A stretch of DNA of 64,000 bases from Staphylococcus massiliensis CCUG 55927 (GTDB taxonomy: Bacteria > Bacillota > Bacilli > Staphylococcales > Staphylococcaceae). The position numbers and the translations under genes were made by a program. Numbering within the stretch: the stretch's first letter is position 1; each line of letters starts with the position of its first letter. The stretch spans positions 215,519 through 279,518 of the forward strand of contig NZ_JH815593.1 in NCBI RefSeq assembly GCF_000298075.1. The letters are read 5' to 3'. The notes under the pieces were generated by a model. That model did not search any database, was not told where the DNA came from, and saw only the letters and a program-made list of their open reading frames with translations. Of this stretch, positions 13,152-18,180 are shown piece after piece.

Positions 13152-13171
13152 ACGATTATTGATAAAGAAAT

Positions 13172-13210
13172 AGACGTGAGCACATTGTGAATAGCGTGTC
13201 TCACGTCTTT
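13172..13210 (+). terminator. Terminator of tcdA
   Basis: AGACGTGAG at 13172-13180 pairs with CTCACGTCT at 13200-13208, with CAC/GTG adding to the stem, followed by TT. Confidence 0.75.
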
Positions 13211-13214
13211 AAGT

Positions 13215-13394
13215 TTATGGTATGGATTTGTGGTTATGGGTTGAATTTAAGGTTGTGGTAAGGTTTTAAGTTACAGGAAATGATCTTAGTTAATGGTATA
13301 GATTAGTGGTTATGGATTTAATTTAAGATTGTGGTAAAGATTTGAGCTAATGTTTATGGCATTGATGTGTCTTTAGGAAATGGCATCGTCTTAA
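13215..13394. repeat. Imperfect GT-rich tandem duplication between convergent tcdA and rarA
   Basis: Two degenerate copies lie about 76 bp apart (starting near 13215 and 13291). They share the order ATGGTAT-GATT-GTGGTTATGG-TTTAA-TTGTGGTAA. A further partial echo (AGGAAATG-ATC-TTAG) follows near 13375. No open frame of note is present. It fills the gap between the convergent genes. Confidence 0.55.
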
Positions 13395-15250: not shown

Positions 15251-15282
15251 TGACAAGTAAAACCTTGAAAGGAGAATGTGAG

Positions 15283-15474
15283 ATGTCTGAAGAAAACAAT
15301 CAGTTCGAGCAAACTAAAGGTAACGTTAAAGAAACGATCGGTAATATGACGAATAATAAAGATTTAGAGAATGAAGGTAAAGAAGATAAAACGTCTGGTA
15401 AAGCTAAAGAAGTTGTAAACGATGTGAAAGATAAAGCACATGATGTTATTGATAACTTCAAAAGCGACAAATAA
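15283..15474 (+). CDS. csbD: CsbD-like general stress protein
   Basis: A 63-residue hydrophilic protein of the CsbD family, abundant under sigma-B control in Bacillales; its biochemical role is unknown. The sequence is rich in K, E, N and D, with the family pattern [13 protein letters not shown]...[24 protein letters not shown]. The ATG at 15283 is set by AAAGGAG at 15268-15274; an upstream in-frame ATG at 15220 lies before the predicted transcript start. A second small hydrophilic gene follows 37 bases later before a terminator, so both likely form one stress transcript. Confidence 0.88.
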
Positions 15475-15511
15475 TTATCAACTATAGAATTTAACGAAAG
15501 GCTGATTAACT

Positions 15512-15718
15512 ATGAATAAAGAACAATTCGATAAAATTAAAGATACAGCGGAAGACGCTTATAACAAATACCAAGAGTACCAAAACAAAAATGGTGAGAA
15601 TAACGAAAACAACGATAACGACAATAACGATAATAATGAAAATAATGAAAAGAGCGGCGGCAACTTCATGGATCAAGCTAAAGACGCTATCGATAAATTC
15701 ACTGGCGACAAATCATAA
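15512..15718 (+). CDS. Small Asn/Glu-rich protein, function unknown
   Basis: A 68-residue protein with AAAGG upstream of the ATG. The N-terminal part (MNKEQFDKIKDTAEDAYNKY) and the C-terminal part (FMDQAKDAIDKFTGDKS) look like amphipathic helices. Residues about 25-48 are a low-complexity N/D/E tract built from near-repeats of AAC/AAT, GAA and GAT codons. The C-terminus resembles the CsbD-type ending VIDNFKSDK, so it may be a diverged stress paralogue. It shares the csbD transcript and ends at a strong terminator. It is probably a real gene, with no known function I can assign. Confidence 0.7.
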   Translation: MNKEQFDKIKDTAEDAYNKYQEYQNKNGENNENNDNDNNDNNENNEKSGGNFMDQAKDAIDKFTGDKS

Positions 15719-15727
15719 GTATTTACG

Positions 15728-15760
15728 AAGCTACAACGATGTACATGCGTTGTAGCTTTT
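15728..15760 (+). terminator. Terminator of the csbD operon
   Basis: AAGCTACAACG and CGTTGTAGCTT form an 11-bp perfect stem around a 9-base loop, followed by TT. Confidence 0.9.
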
Positions 15761-15810
15761 AGTCTGTTAAAGGTTTGGATTTGGGTTGGATTTGGCTTGG
15801 AATTGTTGGT

Positions 15811-16263
15811 GGTTTATCATGAAAATTGTAACGTGATAAACGGAGGCCCTTGGTTTATCAAGAAAGTCGAAACGTGATAAACGGAGGCCCTTGGTTTATC
15901 AAGAAAGTTGTTATGTGATAAACGGAGGCCCTTGGTTTATCAAGAAAGTTAGAACGTGATAAACGGAGGGGCTTGGTTTATCAAGAAAGTTAGAACGTGA
16001 TAAACGGAGGGGCTTGGTTTATCAAGAAAAGTAGAACGTGATAAACGGAGGGGCTTGGTTTATCAAGAAAGTTGAAACGTGATAAACGGGAGGCCTTAGT
16101 TTATCAAGAAAGTTAGAACGTGATAAACGGAGGGGCTTGGTTTATCAAGAAAGTTGAAACGTGATAAATGAAGGCCCTTGGTTTATCAAGAAAAGTAGAA
16201 CGTGATAAACGGGAGGCTTTGGTTTATCAAGAAAGTTGAAACGTGATAAACGGAGGGCTTATA
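15811..16263. repeat. 41-bp tandem array, family 1 (11 copies)
   Basis: TTTATCA starts at 15813, 15854, 15895, 15936, 15977, 16018, 16059, 16100, 16141, 16182 and 16223, an exact 41-bp step. Each unit holds TTTATCA, AGAAA, a 4-base variable piece, AACG, then TGATAAA, so the arms form an inverted repeat. A 13-bp segment such as CGGAGGCCCTTGG or CGGAGGGGCTTGG follows. The period is not a multiple of three and no long frame runs through it. The first copy is the most diverged (CATGAAAATTG). It is not CRISPR: the segments between arms are near-identical. Confidence 0.95.
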
Positions 16264-16267
16264 CCTT

Positions 16268-16638
16268 CATTTACAAGAAATCGAAAACGTGTAAATGAAA
16301 GGGCTCTAAATTTACAAGAAATCAGAAACGTGTAAACCAAGGCCCTTTAAAATTACAAGAAATCAGAAACGTGTAAATTAAGGGCCTTCAAATTTACAAG
16401 AAATCGAAAACGTGTAAATGAAAGGGCTCTAAATTTACAAGAAATCGAAAACGTGTAAATGAAAGGGCTCTAAATTTACAAGACTTCAAAAACGAGTAAA
16501 CCAAGGGCCTCCAAATTTACAAGAAATTGAAAACGTGTAAACCTAGAGCCATCAAATTTACAAGAAATCGAAAACGTGTAAATCAAGGGCCTCCAAATTC
16601 AAAAGACTTCGAGAACGTGTAAAACAAGCCCCCCTCTA
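16268..16638. repeat. 41-bp tandem array, family 2 (9 copies)
   Basis: Units start at 16270, 16311, 16352, 16393, 16434, 16475, 16516, 16557 and 16598, again exactly 41 bp apart and 47 bp after the last family 1 unit. Each has TTTACA, AGAAAT, AAAACG, TGTAAA, then a segment such as TGAAAGGGCTCTAAA or CCAAGGGCCTCCAAA. The core is shared with family 1, but the arms are TTTACA/TGTAAA rather than TTTATCA/TGATAAA. An 8-bp inverted repeat, TGTACATA at 16644-16651 and TATGTACA at 16666-16673, lies just beyond. Confidence 0.93.
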
Positions 16639-16810
16639 AAAATTGTACATACTTATCTTATCACTTATGTACATTCTAAATTAGCATTTACAGTAAACCC
16701 CAGCAGCACATAATTCTCTCTCATATGGACCCAAAGAAGCAATGGCTTCTTTGCCCCGATTATAACCAGCAATATCAAAGGAACAACACCCAATACCGCT
16801 AAATATCCAT

Positions 16811-16845
16811 AAAAAAGGACCAAAGAAGCGACGGCTTCTTTGACC
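16811..16845 (-). terminator. Terminator of the flavin monooxygenase gene
   Basis: Read on the minus strand, arms CAAAGAAGC and GCTTCTTTG (16821-16829 and 16834-16842) around a 4-base loop are followed by GGTCC and six T (16811-16816). A twin hairpin with identical arms sits at 16732-16753 and may be a second terminator. The rest of 16639-16863 shows no convincing gene. Confidence 0.75.
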
Positions 16846-16863
16846 CTCATTTAATTCAACAAA

Positions 16864-17862
16864 TTATGATTCTAAAGCTTCCTTAAGCAGTTTGTAAGAG
16901 TAATGTTGTTTGTCTTCATCATATATATAGCTTACTGCGATTAACTCATCGAATTCACCATAAGTTTCTTCGAATGCTTCTAACTGTTTCTTAACGGTTT
17001 CTTTAGAACCGACTAACGATTGTTGCATACGTGTTTTAGCAAGTTCATACTCTCTTGGCGTTAGAATTGCTTCTAAGTCTTCTACAGGTGGTTGAACGGG
17101 TTGAAGTTTACCGCGAATGATACTAATCATAACTTGAGCTTGTGTAGTAGCTAGATATTGAGCTTCTTCATCCGTATCAGCTACGATAGCGTTTAAACAT
17201 ACCATCATATAAGGCTCGTCAAGTACATCAGATGGTTCGAATAAGCGTTTGTAAATATCCATTGCTTCTTTCATTTGTTGTGGCGCGAAATGACCAGCGA
17301 ATACATACGGTAGGCCTTTTCGGGCAGCAAGATGAGCAGAATCTGTAGATGAACCAAGAATATATAAAGGCACTTCTTTCTCAGGTGCTGGATAAGCGCG
17401 AACATGTGGTTGTTGAGATGACGGACCGAAGTACATGCGTAACGATTCAACCTCATCAGGGAACTGATGAACGCCTGCATGTTGATCGCGACGTAGAGCA
17501 CTAGCCGTCATCATATCCGTACCTGGTGCGCGACCTAAACCTAAATCAATACGGTCGCCAAAAATCGTAGCTAACGTACCAAACTGTTCTGCAACGACTA
17601 AAGGTGCATGGTTAGGTAACATGATACCACCTGAACCAACGCGAATTGATTTCGTATGATGAAGGGTATGTTGGATGAGTAGCGATGTCGCCGTACTCAC
17701 TAAGTGAGGCATATTATGATGTTCTGCAATCCAGTAACGCTGATAACCTAAATCTTCTACGTGTTGCGCTAAGCGAATAAGTTCATCTATCGCTTCTTTA
17801 TCACTATGGCCTTCACGTATCGGCGCTAAGTTTAATGCAGACAATTTTTTAGCTTGAGCCAT
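16864..17862 (-). CDS. LLM-class (luciferase-like) flavin-dependent monooxygenase
   Basis: A 332-residue TIM-barrel flavoprotein of the bacterial-luciferase superfamily, likely using FMNH2 or F420-like cofactors to oxidise a small molecule; the substrate cannot be told. Features: [12 protein letters not shown] at the N-terminus, RYWIAEHHN near residues 42-50, [12 protein letters not shown] near 76-87, [15 protein letters not shown] near 101-115, and [15 protein letters not shown] near 166-180, the pattern of the YwcH/YhbW-type subgroup. GGGAGGAA precedes the ATG on the minus strand. It is transcribed against its neighbours, stands alone between repeat arrays, and interrupts the usual csbD-iscS neighbourhood, so it looks like an accessory insertion. 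Confidence 0.9.
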
Positions 17863-17921
17863 TTAAATTCCTCCCTCATTAATCGTATATCAATTATATC
17901 AATTACCTTACACCTTCTTAA

Positions 17922-18180
17922 TCTAATTGCTCAAAAGCATTTTGAAGGGGGCACCTATTATCAAATGTTCAAAGACCCTTTTAATGGAAGGGTTGCACCG
18001 ATAATCAAATATTCAAAGGCATTCGAAGGGGGCCACCTACAATCAAATGTTCAAAGGGCCTTTCATCGAGAGTTTAGCACCGATATCAATTATTCAAAGG
18101 GCTTTTCAACGAGAAGTCAGCACCGACAATCAATTGCTCAAAGGGCTTTTCAAGGAGGGGTTTGCACCGACAATCTGCAA
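17922..18180. repeat. Imperfect 38-44-bp tandem array (6 copies plus a fragment)
   Basis: Units begin near 17922, 17961, 18005, 18043, 18086 and 18130, with a fragment at 18174. The shared order is TCAAATGTTCAAAGGGC, then TTTCAA-GAG, then a GCACCGACAA ending. Spacing varies (38, 39, 43, 44), unlike the exact 41-bp arrays. It lies upstream of both the monooxygenase gene and iscS. 18191-18339 after it is a short leader containing small hairpins and no clear promoter. Confidence 0.85.

Follow-up and report, generated by a model that had tools for sequence, protein, structure and literature searches.

Repeats between bacterial genes are often taken as selfish or neutral debris. Several described systems come close to the array analysed in the present study. 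STAR elements are short intergenic repeats found at many loci, differing between species and described as being of unknown function (PMC3532100). REP/BIME elements are described as extragenic, regularly spaced palindromes of 20–40 bp with more than 100 copies per genome, located between convergent and co-directional genes (PMC2817692, PMC3733652), and BIME-2 is described as binding gyrase (PMC2817692; gyrase also in PMC3733652). The main text of the RepRanger survey of REP sequences does not mention Staphylococcus (PMC12306157). The pneumococcal BOX is presented as an intergenic composite whose middle module is tandemly repeated (PMC3049150). For transposed non-coding families with long repeats, the passages of one survey devoted to them name only Leptospira interrogans and Methanocella conradii (PMC6749651). 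Tandem and STAR-like arrays, as one report describes, can be mis-called as CRISPR (PMC5294841).

The window, that is, the whole stretch of 64000 nucleotides analysed here (Staphylococcus massiliensis CCUG 55927, contig NZ_JH815593.1, positions 215519–279518), contains a tandem array composed of two blocks, hereafter named A and B. An earlier note on this DNA had counted 11 units followed by nine, and this count was borne out, with all of the within-block steps being 41 bp. The features of the array and its surroundings are as follows.

15280–15474, plus strand: gene of a CsbD-like protein (PF05532)
15512–15718, plus strand: small acidic ORF of 68 amino acids, the left neighbour, without a Pfam match
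15730–15760, plus strand: probable intrinsic terminator serving the left-hand genes, some 54 bp upstream of the array, found by a simple custom scan and absent from a stricter terminator scan
15811–16261, plus strand: block A, 11 units of 41 bp, dyad TTTATCA-AGA-N7-AACG-TGATAAA, 13-nt linker
16262–16268, plus strand: A-to-B junction, core-to-core distance 46 bp rather than 41 bp, left arms 47 bp apart
16269–16637, plus strand: block B, nine units of 41 bp, dyad ATTTACA-AGA-N7-AACG-TGTAAAT, 13-nt linker
16815–16848, minus strand: intrinsic terminator that serves the right-hand gene and points towards the array, found by both the custom and the stricter scans
16864–17862, minus strand: luciferase-like monooxygenase gene (PF00296), the right neighbour, convergent

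The window array is not a product of chance, as its TRF scores of 649 and 429 and the presence of the family at 15 further loci (see below) demonstrate. It lies where the earlier note placed it, between a terminator and the 3′ end of a minus-strand gene, with a plus-strand terminator before it and a minus-strand terminator plus the monooxygenase 3′ end after it. The view that the array is non-coding also held, as stops occur throughout the six frames (14–21 per frame) and no open run exceeds 40 codons. However, the middle said to be common to all units was overstated: AAGAAA is present in 17 of the 20 units, AACGTG in 18 and both in 16. The arms described for the first block, TTTATCA and TGATAAA, were each found in 11/11 units, and those of the second block were confirmed in part, TTTACA occurring in 7/9 and TGTAAA in 8/9 units. 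Aligned by their centres, the A and B arms have the same length (TTTATCA versus ATTTACA) and differ by an AT/TA swap and usually by the outermost base, with no deletion.

Other repeats were also seen in the window. A T/G-rich degenerate repeat of 38 bp (13208–13344) takes up a large part of the other convergent gap present in the window (13152–13390). A second tandem family, with irregular 38–44-bp steps and a AAAGGGCTTTTCA core, is located at 17919–18175, in the gap from which the monooxygenase gene and a probable NifS/IscS-like gene diverge. In a search that scored 40 of 126 candidates, this AAAGGGCTTTTCA family had short matches at at least six other places in the genome; by eye, it was also present in the flanks of several 41-bp arrays.

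Using the window array as the query, 30 BLAST matches were obtained and grouped into 16 loci of the 2.37-Mb genome, the window array included. Units were extracted by the core CAAGA-N7-AACGTG with up to three mismatches and then chained, giving 235 units in 19 sub-arrays, with up to 30 units in the largest arrays; the copy numbers are minima, as N runs lie within three arrays, and at L014 one A unit fell outside the chained set. Most of the steps between units (205/216) were exactly 41 bp, and the remaining 11 were of 40 bp (one), 42 bp (four), 46 bp (four) and 83 bp (two). All four 46-bp steps were at A-to-B junctions (the window array, L011, L012 and L013, with L014 likewise by eye), and both 83-bp steps span a unit with one extra base. 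An exact generic pattern gave 80 + 80 matches genome-wide, of which 160/160 were inside the 16 loci, and no solitary exact unit was detected by this pattern in the whole genome. The window array is not a lone slippage product.

Within each sub-array all units are on one strand and only the half-sites alternate. The class order, read by eye, was A then B in eight arrays, B then A in three and one class in five, the assignment at L149 and L150 depending in each case on one ambiguous end unit. Hybrid A/B units that switch within the centre were observed at L009, L148 and L155, with L150 ambiguous. Higher-order repeats of 82 and 123 bp are present in the arrays. Across the A/B junction, the window array and L011 share 98 identical bp, which suggests recent copying between loci. 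Array strand had no consistent relation to genes or GC skew, orientation with respect to the latter being mixed. The first units at L012:4318-4352 and L155:5302-5336 (minus strand, approximate) are perfect palindromes with arms of 10–11 bp, TTATCACGTT...AACGTGATAA, and are perhaps the ancestral form of the unit.

The unit is an imperfect 28-bp dyad, TTTATCAAGA-N7-AACGTGATAAA in class A or ATTTACAAGA-N7-AACGTGTAAAT in class B. Half-site centres are 21 bp apart inside the unit and 20 bp apart across the linker, with alternating orientation, and as each of these distances is about two helical turns, the half-sites would lie on roughly one face of the helix. Constraint was determined on 217 of the 233 tiled units, after removal of hybrids, units without a class and groups of fewer than three; N-bearing units had been taken out earlier. 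Deviation from the locus-and-class consensus was found in 70 of 4123 cells (1.7%) at the 19 half-site positions, in 351 of 1519 cells (23%) at the seven N7 positions and in 544 of 3255 cells (17%) at the 15 linker positions. The number of allele gains per position was 2.3 for the half-sites compared with 20.5 for N7 and linker together, nine-fold fewer. Eleven core positions had served in finding the units and four in classing them, which favours conservation at those positions; the half-site positions 5, 6, 29 and 30, used for neither, showed 9, 1, 2 and 6 allele gains respectively. Within N7 there were 14–32 gains at six of the seven positions and 8 at the seventh, which adjoins AACG. N7 and the linker drift in sequence but hardly in length. 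AGA and AACG, which are unpaired in the stem, were conserved as strongly as the arms. Read from the sequence, this uneven conservation together with the fixed spacing says that something probably recognises the half-sites.

The arrays are not placed evenly among the gaps between genes. Convergent gaps accounted for 11 of the 16 array loci, compared with four of 51 other gaps of at least 100 bp in the same stretches (Fisher p 3e-6); the other five array gaps were co-directional by script, with L012 divergent by eye (between a 5′-nucleotidase gene and thiC). In the simple custom scan, terminators faced the array from both sides within 330 bp at 10/16 loci (25/32 sides), against 1/16 loci (9/32 sides) with the direction reversed and 0.4/16 loci (5.1 sides) with pair-shuffled flanks. 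A Pfam scan of 33 adjoining or near-adjoining proteins, among them neither the right-hand neighbour at L154 nor the closest ORF to the right of L014, gave matches for 31, all to ordinary cellular families; the left neighbour at L150, which makes that gap convergent, had no match. Also at L150, an 87-amino-acid ORF with internal repeats of the type IEFKGLFK/IEYKGLFK (C1:829657-829920, minus strand) lies beside a NERD-domain gene. Positive supercoils are expected to meet at convergent gene junctions. Placement alone, however, does not prove function, because convergent gaps are without promoters and tolerate neutral insertions.

We analysed the ends of the arrays further. In the mean over the 16 loci, the likeness to each array's own unit drops at the outer half-site edges of the dyad. 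A change-point estimate placed 12 of the 16 right ends at the half-site edge, +21 to +26 relative to the start of the core, and the other four were at +31, +34, +47 and +54, the last of them (L013) being a further degenerate unit. The left starts were scattered from 0 to −22, with the half-site edge at about −5. Right ends are therefore largely in phase. No similarity between loci was detected among the 32 flanks (up to 450 bp) at E 0.01. Several arrays are flanked by T/G-rich sequence on the left and A/C-rich sequence on the right, for example at window 15768–15810 and L147, and the flanks of L009 carry GGGCGGTCGTAGGGG and its near inverse CTACGACCGCCCCTC.

When patterns of the unit were searched across the genus genomes, arrays were found in the genome itself and in none of the 83 others, the main pattern matching 1/84 genomes (its own) and 0/83 others. 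A looser pattern gave single matches in 4/24 other genus genomes. BLAST, with six candidates scored per genome, detected matches in 21/83 other genus genomes at E 0.1, the best of which (G082, E 6.7e-6) was one isolated stretch with no array. With a profile built from 39 two-unit stretches (60 candidates per genome, strict filters), matches were detected in 12/83 others at E 0.01, the best being 0.0017. No array was present among 120 loci from other genomes; in 15 of these a pair of three-mismatch cores lay approximately 41 bp apart, and nothing better was seen. Among GTDB genome contigs, a collection from which the species itself is possibly absent, a single exact match was found in each of 53 stretches, with no array and no Staphylococcus titles. 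Viral contigs gave 11 stretches with one exact match each and no array, and phage and plasmid collections gave no blastn match. In the 29 of the 83 relatives in which this locus was compared, no 41-bp array lies beside the orthologous monooxygenase gene. The adjoining monooxygenase is at most 76% identical in relatives, indicating that the nearest relative is a distant one. The array family is thus restricted to one species as far as searched, and the lack of an array in the 83 other genus genomes implies that it has no conserved essential role. The family is apparently undescribed: a search for 41-bp staphylococcal repeats, mostly of non-subscription literature, returned no description of it among the matches listed.

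Our tentative reading, the likeliest of those considered but not a settled account, is that this species-specific family of arrays is a DNA-level lattice of putative protein-binding half-sites. A dimeric or polymerising host protein would bind the half-sites cooperatively along the array, the candidates being a nucleoid protein, a topoisomerase such as gyrase, or another factor. N7 and the linker would act as spacers, variable in sequence and fixed in length, and the islands between convergent transcription units may serve as topological or organisational anchors. The arrays would grow through slippage or unequal crossing-over and would now and then be copied from one locus to another, of which the 98 bp shared with L011 may be a trace. 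The convergent setting and the analogy with BIME-2, which binds gyrase, suggest that the likeliest use may be in topology or chromosome organisation. The five non-convergent gaps, the scattered left ends, the four off-edge right ends and the lack of a strand rule weaken the protein-lattice reading. A comparison of the motif letters with the literature gave no bacterial regulator among the matches listed, as judged by title and the start of the abstract; DnaA, Fur and dif sites were also weighed as possible counterparts of the half-sites and provisionally set aside. A bolder form of the protein-lattice reading, which we consider unlikely, is a chromosome-organising system of one Staphylococcus lineage, in which a dedicated protein would polymerise on the two-turn half-sites to form approximately 16 insulator or anchor islands with two recognition classes.

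A strong rival, if a rather less probable one than the protein lattice, is that the family is a neutral self-homogenising satellite, in which a functionless 41-bp unit spreads within gaps that lack promoters, through slippage, unequal crossing-over and ectopic gene conversion. The higher-order 82- and 123-bp repeats, the degenerate end units, the copying of 98 identical bases between loci, the restriction to one species and the scattered left-end phases would all be consistent with such a satellite, and dispersed non-coding satellites are described in Leptospira (PMC6749651). However, drift of this kind does not readily account for half-sites with nine-fold fewer allele gains per position (2.3 versus 20.5), for the small number of indels (5/216 steps of 40 or 42 bp) or for the clustering of right ends (12/16). 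A selfish use may also be envisaged, in which a recogniser of the half-sites spreads the repeat.

The unit might instead be an element recognised by a recombinase or transposase, the enzyme spreading or reshuffling the units. The inverted arms of 10–11 bp, with a variable centre of 7 bp between them (28 bp in total), resemble a tyrosine-recombinase core site; moreover, the hybrid units at L009, L148 and L155 (L150 being ambiguous) switch in that centre, and the flanks of different loci are dissimilar. Yet no match to Y1_Tnp (PF01797) was detected in this genome at E 0.001, whereas 32/84 genus genomes have one, no transposase or recombinase was found by Pfam among the 33 proteins near the arrays, and hybrids would also be expected from ordinary homologous recombination. 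We regard this explanation as quite unlikely.

We consider it still more improbable that the arrays are RNA elements, which when transcribed would form long hairpins stabilising or terminating the transcripts of both sides. Fold z-scores were −17.4 (plus) and −11.1 (minus) for block A and −6.7 and −6.5 (plus and minus) for block B; folding stronger than that of shuffled sequences on both strands is, however, what arrays of inverted repeats are expected to give. The earlier note had argued for selection on a palindrome from arm changes matched on the other side. This covariation proved to be one split between classes A and B only: within either class the arms do not co-vary, stem pairing being close to the shuffled expectation at every pair. 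Over 39 two-unit rows, covariation was 0.284 for the within-unit stem (shuffle 0.093) and 0.302 for the across-linker stem (shuffle 0.098). Furthermore, arm changes without matching changes, which the note had named as evidence against its view, were retained in 15 of 90 A units at two loci, in which an A faces a G in the stem uncompensated (13 being exactly TTTATCA/TGAGAAA), and this weakens the hairpin argument. Rfam gave a single sub-threshold match, located outside the array, and a known RNA family was rejected on this basis. As bases outside the stem (AGA and AACG) are as conserved as paired ones, a protein site would fit the sequence better than a hairpin. Taken together, the conservation of the unpaired bases, the lack of within-class covariation and the position of most arrays beyond terminators lead us to favour recognition of DNA by a protein, as far as sequence can indicate, over an RNA hairpin. 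Thus the selected palindrome of the earlier note stands in part: the strongly constrained unit and the fixed spacing of about four turns are compatible with a repeated dimeric protein site, but the RNA version is weakened.

An array of promoters, with TTTACA-N16-TAAATT recurring in block B on the minus strand, has scarcely any probability. Block B units supply 5/11 promoter-like sites in 15400–17000, where shuffling expects 4.2 (sd 2.2) sites, but the second hexamer matches at just 4/6 positions, block A has no repeated site, and the setting is convergent with terminators on both sides.

This species-limited family joins signs of sequence recognition, namely rigid half-sites and length-fixed spacers, with a strong bias to convergent junctions, and offers a clean test case for arrays as topological devices. 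The arrays are also candidate variable-number loci for strain typing.

Of the known systems, STAR resembles the present family in that the arrays occupy 16 intergenic loci and the orthologous monooxygenase locus is arrayless in 29 relatives. In contrast, the STAR motif is 14 bp long, successive motifs are separated by 40 bp or more and there are at most seven units, whereas here the step is 41 bp, there are up to 30 units and the sequence is another. The STAR motif TNTGTTGNGGCCC had no exact match in this genome, compared with at least one in 28/84 genus genomes, and its two one-mismatch matches in the window were both outside the arrays; membership of STAR is ruled out by the absent motif, as the earlier note had held. 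In the genus, G068 had the highest number of STAR motifs of the 84 genomes searched (271, as 142 + 129). In G046, a 59-bp STAR array (L174:1021-1251) lies 5′ of the orthologous monooxygenase gene, the same side as the AAAGGGCTTTTCA family in the genome analysed here; by eye it contains a GAATTTC/GAAATTC inverted repeat, and resembles the present arrays in having an AT-rich inverted repeat, there combined with a GGCC part.

Unlike BOX, the arrays have no common end modules, the 32 flanks being dissimilar at E 0.01. CRISPR arrays have diverse spacers of ~30 bp, whereas the linkers here are related and of 11–13 nt and the most variable part is the 7 bp inside the dyad; no cas genes were found among the 33 proteins scanned near the arrays. 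As in the bacterial satellites, the array is non-coding and tandem, and several other loci of the same species carry related arrays; the satellites of Leptospira interrogans (37–46 bp) are likewise described as tandem, non-coding and dispersed through a single species (PMC6749651). The unit here is a dyad with sharply uneven conservation. In REP/BIME the units alternate, whereas here the units of a sub-array share one strand and solitary exact units are lacking, and RAYT-driven spread is ruled out by the lack of a Y1_Tnp match. Nevertheless, with 235 extragenic copies of a 28-bp imperfect dyad, the present family is similar to REP/BIME in size, number and place.
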